NCBI GenBank assembly: GCA_020831965.1
Contig: JAFIFP010000007.1
Span: 310,001-374,000 of the forward strand
Reading direction: 5' to 3'
DNA from: Idiomarina sp.
GTDB taxonomy: Bacteria; Pseudomonadota; Gammaproteobacteria; Enterobacterales; Alteromonadaceae
DNA length: 64,000 bases
Shown here: positions 13,404-64,000 of the stretch, in pieces
Numbering within the stretch: the stretch's first letter is position 1
Layout of the letters: every line of letters begins with the position of its first letter
The notes under the pieces: generated by a model
What the model saw: only the letters and a program-made list of their open reading frames with translations
Databases searched by the model: none
What the model was told of the DNA's origin: nothing
Translations under genes and position numbers: made by a program

Positions 13404-13739
13404 CTAACGCTGTCGCTTTAAAATAAAAATTCGTCCGCGGGTGATGGCATACCAAATGAAACTCACACCTGCGACGGAAGGCGCGATTACAGTAGAGATA
13501 TGGCTCGTCCACCCTTCTCCGCCCCAATCATAAAAGGTACCGCCTAAGCCCGCAATGAATAAAAGCAGCGCAACCATCTGTTGCGTAATCAACGCATTAA
13601 GGCGGTCCGCGCGCTTCAAAGCAGCCTGTTGCGCTAAACTATCGGTGTCATGGGCTCCAAGTAGGAAGCCGCAATGTTCACAGCTCGCAGCTTTGTCTGA
13701 CACTTTCTTACCACACCCGGGACAGCTAATAATAGCCAT
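13404..13739 (-). CDS. Zinc-ribbon small membrane protein
   Basis: A 111-residue protein with an N-terminal zinc ribbon (CPGCGKKVSDKAASCEHCG, two CxxC pairs spaced 12 residues) and a charged linker. Two hydrophobic segments follow, near residues 53-70 and 82-100, ending in a basic tail. It is probably an inner-membrane protein with the ribbon in the cytoplasm. Function is unknown; similar zinc-ribbon plus transmembrane proteins are common and uncharacterised. It is the first gene of the operon that includes yeaC, msrC, proQ and prc. Confidence 0.75.
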   Translation of the reverse strand: MAIISCPGCGKKVSDKAASCEHCGFLLGAHDTDSLAQQAALKRADRLNALITQQMVALLLFIAGLGGTFYDWGGEGWTSHISTVIAPSVAGVSFIWYAITRGRIFILKRQR

Positions 13740-35995: not shown

Positions 35996-36194
35996 GACTC
36001 ATAAACCACTTCAACGGACACAGGGCAATACTTAAGGAGTTGTCTAATTTTGTCAAGGTTACCCAGATTGCATTTCATTTACAAACAACTAAGTGGTTTA
36101 TATTAGTGAGATTTTTTAGGTAGACGGAAGGCACAGTAAGCAAGCGACGTTGAATCAATGGGTTCAATGGCTGTGGAAATTATCGATATCGAAT

Positions 36195-36254
36195 TGGTGC
36201 CCGGGGCCGGACTTGAACCGGCACGCTGTTTCCAGCGAGGGATTTTAAATCCCC
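36195..36254 (-). other. Prophage attachment site: 3' half of tRNA-Leu(UAA)
   Basis: Read on the minus strand, this segment is the anticodon stem-loop with UAA, the long variable arm (CTGGAAACAG), the T arm (GGTTCAAGTCC) and the acceptor end with encoded CCA of a tRNA-Leu. The sequence diverges from any tRNA right after the anticodon stem (from about 36255), so the D arm and 5' acceptor strand are missing. This is the remnant left at one end when a phage integrates into a tRNA gene. The restored whole tRNA should be at the other end, beyond the window. Confidence 0.88.
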
Positions 36255-36409: not shown

Positions 36410-37084
36410 TTGAGCTCAGGTACTGATTGGAAATTTTACGCGGCTGTATCGACCTGCCTGTTTTTAGCGGGGACTGTCATAGGAGCTACATTGAGCATAG
36501 ATGCAGAAAGCATCGCTTTGGTAGCCAGTTTAGTGACCGCTTTTGGAACTGTTTTATTGGGTATTGCAGCTATTTATGGAGTTAGCAACTGGTACAACCA
36601 ACAACAATTCTTAAAAAGGGGAGAGAGAGCAGAGAAAGCTTTGAAAGCAATGGCGTCTATCAGTCAACCGGCTGAAAGAATTCTGGCATATACTCGAAGC
36701 CACAGACCCTTACCGCCTGAAGCTCCAGCAAATCAGATCATGTCTTGGGGTACTTTAACAAAAAATAGGTTTATTAAAGTAGTTCAAGCTGCAACTGAGA
36801 TAAAAGAGCAATTAACCGTCGCGAAGCAGTTGCTAATCTGGTTCGAAAATGACTCAATAAAGGGAAATATCTCCTCAATGCTCGAACACTCGGAAATGGT
36901 ATTATTTGCAGCGTCTATGTTTTGGGATCCTAGCGATGCAGATACGCTATCCTTCGAGAATAGAGAGGAACAAGGAATAGCTAACGCTATGATAAAGGAG
37001 CTCTTAGATTCGACACCAAAGCTGATCGAAGCTCACTCATCTATTCAAAGATTTCTCATTCCACTTGCTGAATTAAAAAGGTAG
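36410..37084 (+). CDS. Membrane protein of unknown function, first of a two-gene cassette at the prophage end
   Basis: A 224-residue protein with two hydrophobic segments (about residues 8-26 and 34-56) and a long helical cytoplasmic part rich in charged residues (RGERAEKALKAMASIS onward). I do not recognise the family. The start is TTG at 36410, with GGAGG only four bases upstream. It reads on the plus strand, opposite to all other visible phage genes, and lies between the attachment site and the tail genes, a common place for phage cargo (morons). The second gene starts 4 bp after its stop. A role in defence or superinfection exclusion is only a guess from location and membrane topology. 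Confidence 0.75.
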   Translation: MSSGTDWKFYAAVSTCLFLAGTVIGATLSIDAESIALVASLVTAFGTVLLGIAAIYGVSNWYNQQQFLKRGERAEKALKAMASISQPAERILAYTRSHRPLPPEAPANQIMSWGTLTKNRFIKVVQAATEIKEQLTVAKQLLIWFENDSIKGNISSMLEHSEMVLFAASMFWDPSDADTLSFENREEQGIANAMIKELLDSTPKLIEAHSSIQRFLIPLAELKR

Positions 37085-37088
37085 CAGT

Positions 37089-37727
37089 ATGGAACTGAGC
37101 GAACACGTCCCAGAACGCCGAAATTTAACAGTTATTTCACTAGCGTTCATCGCCTATTATTTCGGGGGCGGTGAATTAGTCGGAGATAAACTTCACTTGG
37201 GTGTAGTCAGTGCTGAATTTTCTAATGCGAAATTTTTAGCAATCATGGCGTGGATCATATTCGGTTGGACAATCTGGAGGTTTTGGGTTGTGACCAGAAA
37301 CCAACTCATAGTCAGCTTGAACAGAGAGTTGAAGGACGAATTCTTCTTCAATAAGTATCTTGCCATCGCAGAAGAACTCATCAGCAAATCAGATGACTCG
37401 AATACAGCACCACAGAAAATATCAGTCACGGGGGTGCGGGTCGCACGATTTATGATTAACATTGATGTCTCACTATCACTAAAGCATGGCGCAGGATTCC
37501 ATGTGAGTAATTTAGGTGAACAGCATAAGTTACTTCATTACGATTGCTACATTACTCGAGGTACCAGCGCTCTGACTATATCTTTTCGAAGTCCCCTATG
37601 GTTCAAGTACTCATTACCTACCTTGATTCGATTAGTGACATGCTATCCAACAACCGCTTCAATATTCGCTCCCTACACTCTCGCTGGACTTGCGCTACTG
37701 GGTGGGCTTCTTTCATTAATAAACTGA
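37089..37727 (+). CDS. Membrane protein of unknown function, second of the prophage-end cassette
   Basis: A 212-residue protein with hydrophobic segments near residues 13-30, 48-70 and 190-211 and a soluble domain between the second and third (RELKDEFFFNKYLAIAEE and later beta-rich parts). The family is unknown. It is 4 bp downstream of the partner gene and clearly in one transcript with it. Base composition is AT-rich, like the partner and unlike the tail genes, which suggests separate acquisition. It ends convergent with the small tail-end gene at 37753. Confidence 0.75.
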   Translation: MELSEHVPERRNLTVISLAFIAYYFGGGELVGDKLHLGVVSAEFSNAKFLAIMAWIIFGWTIWRFWVVTRNQLIVSLNRELKDEFFFNKYLAIAEELISKSDDSNTAPQKISVTGVRVARFMINIDVSLSLKHGAGFHVSNLGEQHKLLHYDCYITRGTSALTISFRSPLWFKYSLPTLIRLVTCYPTTASIFAPYTLAGLALLGGLLSLIN

Positions 37728-58905: not shown

Positions 58906-59163
58906 CTATCCGACGACACGACCTGCCATTTTTAGATCGCGAAGGTGCGCTTTTTCGACATGACGGTAAATGCTATCCAGTACTGCATCATCGGACATTT
59001 TAACCGACACAGAACCAGAGCTCTTATCAACATCAAGTACTTTTGAAGCGGCAAACAGCTCATCTTCTGAAAGCGAACTAAGCCTAGACTGCTTACCAAA
59101 AAGTGTATTTATAATTGAAGTAACCACGTTCGTATTCCATCTATTAGTAGTACTTTTTTTCAT
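58906..59163 (-). CDS. Small accessory protein of unknown function
   Basis: An 85-residue soluble protein with a helical acidic centre (SRLSSLSEDELFAASKVLDV) and a basic end. It is not recognised. I start it at ATG 59163 with AAAAGGAAG upstream; the GTG at 59193 has no such site. It lies 15 bp before the 57988 gene and shares its AT-rich composition, so the two form a likely cargo pair. Confidence 0.65.
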   Translation of the reverse strand: MKKSTTNRWNTNVVTSIINTLFGKQSRLSSLSEDELFAASKVLDVDKSSGSVSVKMSDDAVLDSIYRHVEKAHLRDLKMAGRVVG

Positions 59164-59192
59164 GTAGAACTTCCTTTTGGAAATTACTAACA

Positions 59193-59579
59193 CTAGTAAC
59201 GTACAGTTTTAGTATATATCTTGTCTACTAAAATTGCATCTACCCACGCAGTACCGGCCGCTACCAGCACGTCCACTCGGGTCCTATGAATTTTCAAAAC
59301 GCGCGCAGTAGCTGCAGTATTTCCCTCTAACCAGTAGAAAAGAGCTGTAGCCTTGCTCATTTCTTCATCTCTTGTACGCAGTTTTGATATAGCTCGATCA
59401 ACCTCTAGCGCTTGCTCATCAGAGATAGCATAAACTTTGCCAGCATTGCGACACATGATTTTTGCAAAAGGTGCCATATCAGGAAAATACAATTTCAATA
59501 ACTCGGACTCCGACTTAGCCCAAACGGCCCATTGCTTTAGTAGCCAGCATGTATCCTTTTCAAGTTGAATTCCACTCAT
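59193..59579 (-). CDS. Q-like late antiterminator
   Basis: A 128-residue DNA/RNA-polymerase-binding regulator with the look of Phage_antitermQ proteins: LKQWAVWAKSESELLKLYFP, APFAKIMCRNAG, ISDEQALEVDRAISKLRTRD, and a helix-turn-helix-like end TAATARVLKIHRTRVDVLVA. Such proteins let RNA polymerase read through terminators into late genes. Place at the head of the late block fits this, including the two terminators downstream. It lies 2 bp after the endolysin gene. Confidence 0.75.
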   Translation of the reverse strand: MSGIQLEKDTCWLLKQWAVWAKSESELLKLYFPDMAPFAKIMCRNAGKVYAISDEQALEVDRAISKLRTRDEEMSKATALFYWLEGNTAATARVLKIHRTRVDVLVAAGTAWVDAILVDKIYTKTVRY

Positions 59580-59581
59580 TG

Positions 59582-60268
59582 CTATTGCCCCTGCACATCT
59601 TGTGCGGCATGGCGCAGGTTTTCGGCAACTCTGCGAGTCCAGCCTCTCCCAAACTGGTCGAAGTGACGAAGCTTTGAATAGAAGTCTAGGCGTTCGGCGG
59701 CGAAGCGCTTGATTAGCAATGCCTGGTCTGTTTCCTTAATTGCTGCCTGGGTAATTGGGCCAACAATGCCATCATCAGCAACTCCGGCCGCGCGCTGTAG
59801 CATGCGTATTGCGTTACCTATCCCGTGATTCACGGCAGCATCAAACACTTGAAAACCAATGGCTGGATGGTAGCTGTCTGCGCCCGAACGTTTCCAGTAT
59901 CCACGGTAATAGATATCCTTCGCGTGAGTGAGCGTCAGATCTTCCATCTTGCCAGCATAACCATACTCCCGAGCTGTGCGCTCTGTAATACCAAAGTTAG
60001 TTGCCCCGCCCGGATCCGATGGATGGTCCACATAACCGCCCTCATGAGCAATCACTCGGTCAAAGATGGCCGTGAAAGCATTGTAGTTGGCACAGGAAGA
60101 AGACTTGGCCGTGTTCTCAGCTCGAAACTCTTCGTCCTCAAGCCGCGTGTAGTAATCTTTGATTCCATCGCTCATTTCATCGTTCTCCGGATTAGTCGTT
60201 GCAGTGCTCGGATTCCATCCAGGTAACGCTCTCCAAATCCACCGGAGGCTTTCTATTAGTTTGTTCAT
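59582..60268 (-). CDS. Endolysin, GH108 N-acetylmuramidase with peptidoglycan-binding domain
   Basis: A 228-residue lysozyme-like enzyme that breaks the host wall. The catalytic Glu is in VIAHEGGYVDHPSDPGGATN (Glu76), with FGITERTAREYGYAGK and GYWKRSGADSYHPAIGFQVF typical of GH108. A PG_binding_3-type end (DDGIVGPITQAAI) follows. About 60 extra residues precede the domain without a signal peptide. A second start at ATG 60175 (31 codons in) also has a GGAG site. Release needs the holin. Confidence 0.92.
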   Translation of the reverse strand: MNKLIESLRWIWRALPGWNPSTATTNPENDEMSDGIKDYYTRLEDEEFRAENTAKSSSCANYNAFTAIFDRVIAHEGGYVDHPSDPGGATNFGITERTAREYGYAGKMEDLTLTHAKDIYYRGYWKRSGADSYHPAIGFQVFDAAVNHGIGNAIRMLQRAAGVADDGIVGPITQAAIKETDQALLIKRFAAERLDFYSKLRHFDQFGRGWTRRVAENLRHAAQDVQGQ

Positions 60269-60346
60269 TAAGTCCTCGAAATGGATTTAATAAATTCCCC
60301 CTAGTGATAATCTCAATTAGCCGCTAATTCACATCTATCAAGCCTT

Positions 60347-61534
60347 TCAGGCTGTGCAGACTTCATCGTGTGTCGGTAATATGTCGGACAGTTTTGCTTC
60401 AATTAAGCCATGCCACCGCTCCAGTGCTTCAAGCTTCTGCTGATCCAAAGCGGTGTGAATATAGGTTCTATCGAGCTTCGTCATGGCATGGTTTAACAAG
60501 CGCTCTGCCACGAGATAATCAATGCCTAAGTCAGCCCACCAAGAGCGTGCGAGCTTGCGCAAGTCATGCGCCGACCAATGCCCTTGTGAGAGTGTCCGAA
60601 TCAATCGTGTGGCATCTTGGCGTTTGAGTGGCCCCCGCTCTCCGGGAAAGACATACTCCCCTTTCACCGATTGCGCGCGCTTCTTCAAAAGCGTTGCGGC
60701 AAAGTCCGTCAGTGGGATCCGATGCTCTCGACCTGTCTTGGTAATATCGGCGGGCAACGTCAGTCGCTTCGCCCCCCAATCGATGTGGCGCCATTTAATT
60801 TGTCGGGTTTCCCCGATGCGCGTACCGTGTAGCAACAACAGCATGCTCAATGTTTGCGTCGGTTCGTGAGCGCCGTGAATCGACTTGAGAACGCCGTCCA
60901 AGTCAGAGCCCTGCAGTCGACTTCCTCGAGGAGCAATCGGCCGGTCGATAAAGTCGGTGAAATTAATCCCCTCGATGGGGTTTGTCCGTAGGCGCCCAAA
61001 TCGATGCGCTAACTTGAATGCGCGTTTGAGCACGGCAAAATGGAAGCGCACCGTAGCCAGGGCATATTGGTTTTGCATAGGCCAAATGAATATCTCATCG
61101 AGAAGCTGGCGACTCAGCGCCGCAATTGGATGCTCTCCTAGGCGGGGAACTAAATGACGTCCAATACTGCTGTCGATATTCAAACGTCGATCATTGCTCA
61201 AGGTGCGATCAAGCTTCACTCGCTCACGGTACCAATTCAGGAGTTGTCCTGTTTGATGCCACGACTCGGAGTCACCAGAGCCTGCTTGTGTGGCATTCGT
61301 GAGATCCGGCAGATTCTTGAATAGCTGACGCGCCGATGTGTCAGGCCAGTTACCCAGTTTCGTTCGAATGGTCTTTGCAGACTCGTAACGGACCCAGTAC
61401 CAGCTGCCGCGCTGGCGGCACTGACGAAATCGAAGGAGAATGGGATAGCGCGTATCTCGAACATCCGTCGCTGCCGTACTCTCTCCAATCCGCCGCAGTT
61501 CGGCGTCTGATATCTGGGTGCGCACCGTTGTCAT
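60347..61534 (-). CDS. int: Tyrosine-family phage integrase
   Basis: A 395-residue site-specific recombinase with an N-terminal arm-binding region and a core-binding region at about residues 90-200. The catalytic set is Arg239 ([11 protein letters not shown]), Lys266 ([12 protein letters not shown]), His323 and Arg326 ([10 protein letters not shown]), His349 ([10 protein letters not shown]) and nucleophile Tyr358 (RTYIH). All expected residues are present. It probably catalysed insertion into tRNA-Leu. It lies between csrA (4-bp overlap at 61531) and the endolysin gene, well away from this attachment site. Confidence 0.95.
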
Positions 61535-61710
61535 CCGTGAACTTCATCCTCGAGCTTGGTGCGAAGGTAGACTTCCTCGCGATGCACCGGAACATGCTTT
61601 GGAGCTTTGACGCCGATCTTTACTTGTCCGCCCTGCATGCCCAGAATGACGACTTCAATATCATCCCCAATCATGAACTTCTCGTTTTCCCTACGCTTGA
61701 ATATCAGCAT
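61531..61710 (-). CDS. csrA: Phage-encoded CsrA-type RNA-binding regulator
   Basis: A 59-residue protein with the full CsrA pattern: [40 protein letters not shown] and [10 protein letters not shown]. The RNA-binding arginine 44 is conserved at the canonical place, as is Arg6. CsrA dimers bind GGA motifs in mRNA leaders and repress or stabilise them. The ATG 61710 overlaps the stop of the P-like gene (TGATG) and has AAGGAG 6 nt upstream. It overlaps the integrase gene by 4 bp. A chromosomal csrA is expected elsewhere, so this is probably an extra copy. Confidence 0.92.
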
Positions 61711-62477
61711 CACTGACTCCTTTTTGTGGTGTGTTTGGCCTCTTTGGCCGACTCCCGTATCCGGGCAATCTCTCTCATGAGAGGCGAGTTTGGATCCGGT
61801 CTCCCAAATTTACGCTCGTACTGGAAGCAGAGCGGTTCTGGATCGGTAAAATCCGCGATTGCCTCATGAATTTCTGGCAGGTTCCCTTCCACTTGCGCCA
61901 CCCGAAGGTATTTCTGGTAGGACTTGCTCACCATGGCACGGCGACGCTCACTGGTCGCACTGCTAAAGTCCGTGCCGATATCACGGACCACAAAGCGACT
62001 CAGGCGATGCTTAAACGGATAGTCTTCACCTGGATGATCACGTCTGAACACATCGATGCAGCGCCACACTTCGTCATAGCATTCATCAAAGCTGGGTAAG
62101 CCCAACTCTTCCGCGCTAGGCCGACACATCTCAACGAACTCCACGGGGTTTGGCGTGAATGGATTCTCATGAGCGCGGCCTGGCACTCGTTCAATTCCAC
62201 GACGAAGATCCACGACACCCAAATTGGCCTTGACCAGCTGCCGGCCATACTCCTTCATCGTCTCGACGAGGACATCGGCAAACTTGCCAGCAAAATCTCG
62301 GCAGTACATGTTAAAGGCTGGTACCAGCTCGCCCATCAGCACCTTCCAGAGCTCTTGTTTAAGAGCCTCCGGAGAATGCCCTTGATTGTTCAAAGACTCT
62401 TGCGGTGGCGCTTTTCGCGCGTGTGCCGCTTGAACCGTTCTGTTCATTTGATTTACCAAGGTGTTTTGGTCGCGCAT
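61710..62477 (-). CDS. Replication protein P-like (helicase loader candidate)
   Basis: A 255-residue protein. The part near [20 protein letters not shown] resembles the N-terminal helix region of lambda P-like proteins, followed by [15 protein letters not shown]-type and an Arg-rich middle. In lambda-like phages P loads the host DnaB helicase and follows gene O, as here. The start is at ATG 62477 with AGGGAG 7 nt upstream, giving a 119-bp overlap with the O-like gene. ATG 62336 with GGAAGG is an alternative without overlap. The assignment depends on order and general similarity. Confidence 0.65.
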
Positions 62478-63216
62478 AGCTTTTCTCCCTGCCGCACCAC
62501 ACTCGCCATTCGGCAAGCCAGTCGGCTAACGTTCGTGAAGTGTTCCGATGCTTTGCATGAAAGCAAAAGCTCTGAAACACGCCAGACAGCTGCTCGTCAT
62601 CAAGTTGAAGCCCCGTCGTTTTAGCGACGAGAATAAAGTCACTGGTACAATTCAATTCGTGGCCGCACAAAAAATCGCCGCGGCCCTCTAGAGAGAGAGG
62701 ATCTTGATCAGATAGATCAGAGGTGTGGCGCTCATGCTGTGGCGCTCCTTTGGCGCTCCTTGGGGCGTTCCTAGTGGCGCTCATATCTGACGAATCCCCC
62801 GTAATTACTGGGTTTTCTTGTGGCGCTCCGTGTGGCGCTGACTGTGGCGGTGCTTCCGTGGCGCTCATGTGGCTCTCCTCATTTGGACGGACTTTTCCTA
62901 CCGTCGCTAATGGAAGTCGGAAAACCATGTTTTCTCCGGGCGCTGATTCATGCATGCGTTCTATCCAGCCGTATCGTTCGAGCTTGCGTAACGCGCGCTT
63001 TATCTGATCCTTTGTAGGTATCGAAATCGGTTCACGACTCCCCCGCTCCGGACGAAACTCCAAATGTTCACGGATCCCTTGGTAAGAGATTCTCCGCTTC
63101 GCTCCGACGACACCGGACGTAAAATCCATGTGCCATCGCAGGTAAAGATAAAGAGAACGCTCCCGATCGCTGATGTGGGAGTCAGCGAAGAGCGCACGGC
63201 ATTCTTGCTGATTCAT
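62359..63216 (-). CDS. O-like phage replication initiator
   Basis: A 285-residue DNA-binding protein. The N-terminal winged-helix part has ISDRERSLYLYLRWHMDFTS and IPTKDQIKRALRKLERYGWI. A low-complexity middle is encoded by a DNA repeat array at 62724-62877 (the iterons). The C-terminal part (LSGVFQSFCFHAKHRNTSRT) resembles DnaT-like domains. It probably opens its own origin as lambda O does. ATG 63216 overlaps the stop of the zinc-finger gene (ATGA); the longer frame to 63306 lies inside that gene. Confidence 0.78.
   Translation of the reverse strand: MNQQECRALFADSHISDRERSLYLYLRWHMDFTSGVVGAKRRISYQGIREHLEFRPERGSREPISIPTKDQIKRALRKLERYGWIERMHESAPGENMVFRLPLATVGKVRPNEESHMSATEAPPQSAPHGAPQENPVITGDSSDMSATRNAPRSAKGAPQHERHTSDLSDQDPLSLEGRGDFLCGHELNCTSDFILVAKTTGLQLDDEQLSGVFQSFCFHAKHRNTSRTLADWLAEWRVWCGREKSYARPKHLGKSNEQNGSSGTRAKSATARVFEQSRAFSGGS
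62724..62877. repeat. Iteron array, candidate phage replication origin inside the O-like gene
   Basis: About ten degenerate copies of the 9-mer TGTGGCGCT (plus strand) lie at 62724, 62738, 62749, 62760, 62773 and, after a 46-bp step holding an AT-rich part (62782-62818), at 62819, 62831, 62843, 62857 and 62869. Spacing is 11-14 bp, about one helical turn. Five copies match all nine bases or nearly so; those at 62760, 62843 and 62869 are weaker. The layout resembles initiator-binding sites inside lambda O. Confidence 0.75.
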
Positions 63217-63410
63217 AATCGTCCGGCCTGCTTCTCTCGTCGCTCCCAGTCCGCCGCGCACTTGGCAGAGCACCAACGCGAATTGCCAACATCCTCGTCG
63301 CCACATTCAAGGCAATACCCTCGAGGGAGTGGGCCTGTCGGTTTGCGTTTGGAGAGCGCTACGCTCAGCGCATGCGACTCTTCCTGCTGTGCTACATCAA
63401 CAACATCCAT
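63213..63410 (-). CDS. Small zinc-finger phage protein (DUF2116/TraR-like)
   Basis: A 65-residue protein with a helical start (MDVVDVAQQEESHALSVALS) and a C-terminal four-cysteine zinc finger: GYCLECGDEDVGNSRWCSAK and CAADWERRE. Similar proteins are common in prophage early regions; the function is not known. ATG 63410 has GGAGG 5 nt upstream. The stop overlaps the start of the O-like gene. Confidence 0.82.
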   Translation of the reverse strand: MDVVDVAQQEESHALSVALSKRKPTGPLPRGYCLECGDEDVGNSRWCSAKCAADWERREKQAGRL

Positions 63411-63443
63411 GAACACCTCCATTCGTTGTTATTGTTCTTCCGC

Positions 63444-64000
63444 TTATTTGGCGGTGATGTTTACCGGTCCGCCCCGCTTTCTCTCCAAGGCAAGCTCTAA
63501 CCGTCGCTGCATTGCGGCAAGCTGCTGTCGCGCTTCAGCGATTTCTTTAATGGCTTTGGGGATATGGGGCAAATCATGTTCGTGAATTTCGTGATCACGG
63601 AATATAAGACTGACTGCAGCAATGGCCTCCCCTGCTTCTTTCAGGAATTCGCCGTAACACGCCGCGGAATCATCACCATCAAGCAAAGGAACACCCACAT
63701 AGCCAAGACGGTTTGCGAGCGCTCGACGACAATGTGCCTGGTAAGGTTGAGATAGGCCGGCAATAAGAGATTCAACTACATCGGCTGGACACCGGTTATG
63801 GCCATCGACTTCTAAGTACCGCGTGATGGCTTTCCGCCAATTCATAGCGTCGCGCAGCGTATCGCCAGAGGCACTAAACTCGATGGACTGTTGGCTGTGA
63901 GGAATGCGCTCGTGGTAATCCTGAACGACTCGAATACAATAGCTTTCCCAACTGTCGCGGGTCTCGAGCAGCATACGTCGCACTGCGTCGCCTATGAGAT
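63444..64000 (-). CDS. Phage early protein, possibly regulatory (may be cut by the window edge)
   Basis: A protein of at least 179 residues. The N-terminal half has HTH-like character (NWRKAITRYLEVDGHNRCPA) and the C-terminal half is a helical coil (IPKAIKEIAEARQQLAAMQR). The frame is open through the right edge beyond GTG 63983, so the true start may lie outside the window. The placement upstream of the replication genes suggests a CII/YmfL/YdaT-type regulator, but I cannot assign a family from sequence alone. Confidence 0.6.
   Translation of the reverse strand, partial: LIGDAVRRMLLETRDSWESYCIRVVQDYHERIPHSQQSIEFSASGDTLRDAMNWRKAITRYLEVDGHNRCPADVVESLIAGLSQPYQAHCRRALANRLGYVGVPLLDGDDSAACYGEFLKEAGEAIAAVSLIFRDHEIHEHDLPHIPKAIKEIAEARQQLAAMQRRLELALERKRGGPVNITAK

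Follow-up and report, generated by a model that had tools for sequence, protein, structure and literature searches.

A strongly diverged csrA gene in the predicted early operon of a lambda-like prophage of Idiomarina sp.

CsrA, a small protein that decides which mRNAs are translated, governs carbon storage, motility and biofilm formation, and one of its homologues on mobile DNA is LvrC, which resides on Legionella elements that differ from the element described here in type or in gene order. The same difference applies to RsmM of Pseudomonas aeruginosa phages and other mobile CsrAs (PMC7366521), and to CsrT of Legionella elements (cited in PMC7366521), all of which are likewise located on mobile elements; a transfer role common to mobile CsrAs is, in the text of that article, only proposed. 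A survey published in 2020 reported csrA in 30 of 2517 phages (PMC7366521). In a study from 2025, which called the role of phage csrA previously untested, knockdown of the homologue PTXU04_00028 of phage PTXU04 resulted in smaller plaques (PMC11879866); the likeness of this gene, which belongs to a different phage, to the one analysed here is by description. In Salmonella, cI was expressed more strongly and prophage release was reduced when the host CsrA was overexpressed (PMC12371270), and as far as that report goes, CsrA levels can therefore touch the lysis-lysogeny choice.

Matches to the phage CsrA studied here were found in 85 of 50,697 phage records, all with <60% identity, and these include at least one mislabelled stretch of host DNA, a sister of the mislabelled Acinetobacter record and a 691-kb Salmonella record. 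In addition, 500 csrA-containing stretches of viral contigs were confirmed by a profile-guided scan. csrA is thus a known and common phage gene. The initial annotation had called a copy embedded in a lambda-like replication-integration operon unusual; as far as carriage by a phage is concerned, this is not supported, given these counts, the 2020 survey and the 2025 knockdown. The record CAKLQH020000034.1 ('Acinetobacter phage MD-2021a') shows the order epd-alaS-thrA-csrA and is therefore probably bacterial DNA in a phage collection. Among the regulators of PHROG 9500, those of Vibrio phage VvAW1, Providencia phage PSTCR8lys and Pseudomonas phages phi297 and H66 also represent a phage-borne CsrA core. 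In VvAW1, csrA likewise shares bases with both of its annotated neighbours. In PSTCR8lys, phi297 and H66, its distance downstream of cI is 0.8-2.9 kb and its reading direction that of cI, and it does not follow P as in the present case.

The window analysed is a 64,000-nt stretch (positions 310,001-374,000 of its contig) of a 2.67-Mb Idiomarina sp. genome, and its features are listed in Table 1; L003 denotes the stretch that continues rightward past the window, on which position 13712 corresponds to 73712 on the window scale.

Table 1. Features of the prophage in the window and in the adjoining stretch L003.
Feature	Position	Strand	Evidence or remark
attL	36193..36253		perfect repeat, 61 bp, of the tRNA-Leu 3' end
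Q-like antiterminator	59193..59579	minus	PF06530, 7.4e-7
Endolysin (GH108), downstream of the recombinase	59582..60268	minus	PF05838, 6.5e-28
Internal tyrosine recombinase (second of the prophage)	60347..61534	minus	PF00589, 3.1e-20
Phage csrA	61531..61710	minus	intact ORF, ATG start, TGA stop, 59 aa
Lambda-P-like helicase loader	61710..62516	minus	PF06992, 8.4e-14; PHROG 109, 1.2e-14; the frame is open from 62516, with some uncertainty about the start; 62477 was used in the family scans
O-like replication initiation protein	62359..63219	minus	weak: PHROG 270, 6e-5; PHROG 1408, 9e-5; without Pfam match; stronger PHROG matches are families of unknown function
DksA-like zinc-finger protein	63213..63422	minus	PHROG 54, 3.6e-8; without Pfam match
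CII-like activator	63444..63998	minus	PHROG 4834, 1.3e-21; full ORF runs beyond the window to L003 4250
Attachment-side tyrosine recombinase	L003 12602-13636		PF00589, 3.6e-8; PHROG 1, 4.9e-43; ends 75 bp from attR
attR	L003 13712-13772 (window scale 73712-73772), past the window		partner 61-bp repeat

The csrA product matched Pfam PF02599 (CsrA) over residues 1-51 (1.7e-23; 82.7 bits, cut-off 27) and PHROG 9500 ('CsrA-like regulator') with 3.6e-23, so that its assignment to the family is far beyond chance. The initial annotation had described a 59-residue CsrA in which the core, Arg6 and Arg44 are kept, and this holds; it gave neither the strand nor the departure at positions 4 and 5 (Phe and Lys instead of Leu and Thr). 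Val42, His43 and Glu46 are also retained, and the residues at positions 33, 36-37 and 42-46 are typical of the family. The best PDB sequence match was P. aeruginosa RsmA (7.4e-16), and a Shine-Dalgarno-like AAGGAG precedes the ATG. The fold of the family consists of five strands followed by a C-terminal helix (PMC7366521), RsmA orthologs form an intertwined dimer with exchanged strands (PMC3791407), and RNA binding is reported to need Arg44 (PMC3791407 and PMC7366521). The AF2 monomer model of the phage protein (mean pLDDT 74) contains three strands and a helix at residues 46-58, and the stretches corresponding to strands 1 and 5 are left unpaired in it. The top 15 PDB matches of this model were CsrA, RsmA or RsmE chains, and the best full-length matches were CsrA-family chains with rmsd of 4.5-6.6 A.

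The two att repeats bound a prophage of 37.5 kb in tRNA-Leu. The intact tRNA-Leu is at its right end, where Rfam reports a tRNA, with no such match for the left-hand copy; apart from tRNAs, the Rfam scan of the window and L003 detected nothing. CI-, Cro/CII- and integrase-like genes were found in L003. Judged by the cI, cro, CII, P, Q, endolysin, terminase, portal and capsid genes, their lambda-like order and the att repeats, and with the O match being weak, the element is classified as a lambda-like temperate prophage. A search for a second, chromosomal csrA, suggested initially, located one beside alaS (L004 5261-5449) in chromosomal context, whereas the copy in the window is surrounded by phage genes and att ends. 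The latter encodes a real, intact CsrA of phage ownership; genes of this kind are known, but its RNA-reading strand is unusual.

The recombinase next to csrA lies 12.2 kb inside attR, between the P and the endolysin/Q genes, and does not adjoin an att site. It is probably not the integrase of the prophage, because another integrase ends 75 bp from attR, and this recombinase in L003 is the likely integrase. The earlier placement of csrA between replication and integrase genes is therefore supported on the side of the P gene only, and the analysis corrects which recombinase likely integrates the prophage.

Both gene overlaps reported initially were confirmed: base 61710 is common to the TGA of the lambda-P-like gene and the ATG of csrA (TGATG), and the recombinase ATG begins at 61534, generating a 4-bp ATGA overlap with the csrA end. 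A consensus scan of positions 59000-64000 detected no promoter-like sites (0, compared with 3.6 expected) and no terminator-like sites on the minus strand, which, together with the overlaps on both sides, fits co-transcription of csrA from upstream. csrA should thus sit in a rightward early (pR-type) operon, cro/cII-O-P-csrA-recombinase, for which a CI-controlled promoter is expected. Its assignment to a phage early replication operon in the initial annotation agrees with the P-, O- and CII-like neighbours and with a gene order that is that of a phage.

The phage CsrA probably acts early (pR-type expression), as an RNA-binding protein that regulates the translation of mRNAs of the phage, the host or both. 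Upon derepression of the operon by infection or induction, CsrA would be made alongside the replication proteins, would dimerise and would attach to single-stranded GGA-type sites close to the ribosome-binding sites of phage mRNAs, host mRNAs or both, the translation or stability of which would be shifted in the phage's favour. The family matches, Arg6 and Arg44, the signs of co-transcription, the prophage genes and the plaque precedent described in PMC11879866 support this reading; Phe4 and Lys5 in the RNA-reading strand, the outlier divergence and the lack of upstream GGA enrichment weaken it. It draws on sequence, namely on family membership, operon position, prophage borders, the second csrA in the genome and divergence, and we infer early expression, dimerisation, RNA binding and targets. 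If csrA were instead expressed in the lysogen, it might act as a lysogenic-conversion factor that reprograms host carbon storage, motility and biofilm, in keeping with the established roles of CsrA and with the good Shine-Dalgarno-like sequence that the gene itself has; but the gene is located between P and the recombinase in a presumed CI-repressible operon, overlaps on both sides and has no local promoter-like site, and we consider such a role very unlikely. Early translational control is favoured over it because no promoter- or terminator-like site lies in 59000-64000 and co-expression with O and P is expected. As for host targets and partners, no Cas1 was found in the host, so CRISPR control is unlikely to be a CsrA target here, and the CsrB and RsmZ models of Rfam gave no match in the genome, a negative that is weak for RsmZ, the model of which passes its cut-off in 0 of 14 control genomes.

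Six residues (R239, K266, H323, R326, H349 and Y358), which we take to be the catalytic set of a tyrosine recombinase, are invariant in six aligned members of the family of the csrA-linked recombinase. Its relatives (<=46% identity) are distributed among Pseudomonas, Vibrio, Shewanella, related genomes and phages; the best 80 of 133 genome stretches and the best 80 of 594 viral stretches that were confirmed are considered here, and rarer arrangements may escape this selection. The loci compared (n=168, with flanks of up to about 6 kb) comprise 167 with a recombinase relative and one P-protein locus. The recombinase start overlaps an upstream ORF of at least 50 codons in 110 of the 163 scored among these best loci, many of them near-copies (4 bp in 89 and 1 bp in 21, with neither in 53). 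The upstream proteins vary between phages, and csrA occupies this place in none of the 167. These results indicate that the overlap belongs to the slot and not to csrA, the overlap of which with the recombinase looks like the local filling of a variable gene slot and by itself gives no link of CsrA to integration. The overlap with 'int', by which the initial annotation saw csrA fused into the operon, is thus nothing special but a frequent trait of the relatives, and a gene overlapping the recombinase need not form a functional pair with it.

The variable slot and the unusual divergence of the phage CsrA would also suit a dispensable passenger without selected function. The reading frame is, however, intact, the residues at the family-typical positions given above are kept, the Shine-Dalgarno-like sequence is recognisable and csrA occurs in many other phages, and we regard a mere passenger as distinctly unlikely.

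A csrA-recombinase cassette common to many phages was considered and rejected, as csrA was present in 7 of the 168 loci and always on the opposite strand at a distance of 4.7-5.7 kb; one further opposite-strand match near the recombinase relatives (E 0.14) was taken as chance. Among the best 80 of the 500 viral csrA stretches, a recombinase of the csrA-linked profile was found in 6, none closer than 2 kb, and single-sequence scans of viral contigs with the CsrA and the recombinase queries yielded nothing confirmed. By sequence comparison, the order P-csrA-recombinase of the prophage is seen nowhere else among the loci examined, and no description of an arrangement of CsrA with a tyrosine recombinase or in a prophage operon was found in the accessible portion of the open-licence literature. 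As a sign of an integrase role, tRNAs near the recombinase relatives were also recorded, and any tRNA was present in 2 of 60 genome loci. The annotations of phages K303 and PARCL1pr contain no integrase besides the member of this family, which may therefore be a true integrase in those phages. Vibrio phage R20L has two annotated tyrosine recombinases, and the one of the internal family starts 1 bp inside a gene for an ATP-binding protein.

The host CsrA encoded beside alaS belongs to the same family and has the canonical start MLILTRR, whereas the phage CsrA contains Phe4-Lys5. The two proteins are identical at 30 of their first 50 residues. The host CsrA shares a median of 48/50 with 45 genome-derived CsrAs (its own included), and a recent duplication of the host csrA is thus ruled out. 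None of the compared rows exceeds 34/50 identity to the phage CsrA, whereas every member of the viral set has a nearest neighbour there with at least 35/50; no close relative of the phage CsrA was found. By these comparisons the protein is a strongly diverged, long-branch outlier among CsrA/RsmA members, and it could for that reason be decaying or specialised. The phylogeny of the csrA copies proposed in the initial annotation was built from 117 rows, but with few columns and an end branch of 1.25, it leaves the phage CsrA unplaced and in no starred set.

Leu4 is present in 45/45 genome-derived and 71/71 viral in-register CsrAs, Thr5 in 44/45 and 71/71, and Arg6 in 45/45 and 71/71; neither Phe4 nor Lys5 occurs in either set. 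The genome-derived set consists of bacterial genome loci, the host's own included, some of which reside in a prophage or another mobile element. The viral set contains at least one mislabelled host record, was reduced from 73 rows by two that were out of register and was drawn in part with a pattern permitting only L/F at position 4 and T/K at position 5; H43-R44 served as the filter for both sets, so that conservation there is by construction. In a viral sample drawn with positions 4-5 left free (at least 80 matches, of which 71 were unique and one, containing stop codons, was discarded as a chance match), Leu4 was found in 69/70 and Thr5 in 65/70 of the matches listed, with no Phe4 or Lys5 among these 70; G33 and E46 were also present in 68/71. 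A fixed-register F4-K5 pattern, which detects the window gene and covers genes of exactly the same register, found no viral contig. L4-T5 is a near-invariant trait of the compared sets, not a published membership criterion, and the phage CsrA lacks it.

In RsmN, the leucines of strand 1 pack against the two guanines, and the adenines next to these are recognised by backbone amides of that strand (PMC3791407). On our own assignment of residue equivalence between RsmN strand 1 and positions 4-5 of the phage CsrA, Phe4 and Lys5 would be part of the RNA-reading strand; stacking would still be possible for Phe4, and Lys5 brings an additional charge, so that RNA binding may persist with a changed strength or preference. 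An unlikely alternative is a specificity-changed or dominant-negative CsrA, in which Phe4-Lys5 alter base reading or a heterodimer disables the host CsrA, so that host Csr control is lifted rather than added to. The near-invariance of L4-T5 elsewhere and the contacts of RsmN strand 1 with guanines and adenines described in PMC3791407 speak for it, but Arg6, Val42, His43, Arg44 and Glu46 are kept, and the reading of adenines by backbone amides reported for RsmN makes a side-chain change tolerable. More speculative, and in our view a long shot, is a scheme in which the Phe4-Lys5 CsrA recognises a different RNA motif or poisons the host CsrA by heterodimerisation and, being made with the replication proteins, would replace host post-transcriptional control at the onset of the lytic phase. 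A Phe4-Lys5 copy in an operon of predictable timing provides a compact test case for whether phages reuse or rewire Csr control; the interest of the gene is moderate to low unless F4-K5 proves to alter specificity.

GGA motifs near gene starts bear on the rather doubtful possibility that CsrA is a phage-internal regulator, either of the P-csrA-recombinase mRNA that encodes it (autoregulation) or of the timing of the early-late switch. The csrA start site bears AAAAAGGAG; around the start of the recombinase, too, there is an ANGGA site. ANGGA sites occur near the starts of 17/50 prophage genes and 6/44 host genes (p 0.03), and at least two GGAs near the starts of 18/50 and 3/44 (p 0.0009), these prophage counts resting on automatic gene calls (n=50), at least one of which is wrong (the P gene). 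Genes with at least two GGAs are also more frequent in the prophage than in viral loci of the recombinase family (18/50 vs about 183/1105, the latter back-calculated from a fraction of 0.166; p 0.002), and the fraction in csrA-containing viral loci is 0.233 compared with 0.166, in sets that differ in taxa. Against such a regulator, ANGGA is as common (20/52 genes) in the related phage K303, where the csrA profile finds no csrA, and GGA upstream of the Shine-Dalgarno zone is not enriched over gene interiors in the prophage (0.56 vs 0.70 per 43 nt, one-sided p 0.88). The Shine-Dalgarno zone and overall GGA content explain the excess of genes with at least two GGAs at least partly. GGA-rich leaders, for which the initial annotation had recommended a search, were accordingly rejected as a feature of the prophage: upstream GGA is not enriched over gene interiors and ANGGA is no more frequent than in K303, although the higher frequency of genes with at least two GGAs relative to related viral loci remains on the positive side.

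Additional csrA copies were observed in other genomes. At least two copies are present in 12 of the 16 congeners searched, and five congeners possess a second, non-alaS csrA locus with alignable flanks of about 7-11 kb, the flanking genes of which, in the two of the five that were read, presumably correspond to greB and tex, which they resemble. An identical 60-aa CsrA is encoded in three genomes of two genera (L224 1721-1981, L226 5387-5569 and L229 5951-6133); in L224 and L226, its neighbours are a small conserved ORF on one side and, on the other, an ORF resembling a DEDDh-type exonuclease. To judge from this distribution, the 60-aa gene is perhaps a horizontally moving csrA cassette.

Two further gene groups were identified in the prophage itself. 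Three plus-strand ORFs that overlap one another (L003 5651-6973; window scale 65651-66973) adjoin the cI-like gene. One is small and gave no match in PHROGs, Pfam or PADLOC, another encodes an HTH protein that matches PDC-M64B of PADLOC (3.7e-13), and the product of the third resembles PD-T4-9_C weakly (6e-4) and lacks a Pfam match; we presume that they may form a defence module of the toxin-antitoxin-chaperone type. Just inside attL and against the late genes, two plus-strand ORFs of 224 and 212 aa (36410-37727), without Pfam or PADLOC match, are possible morons.
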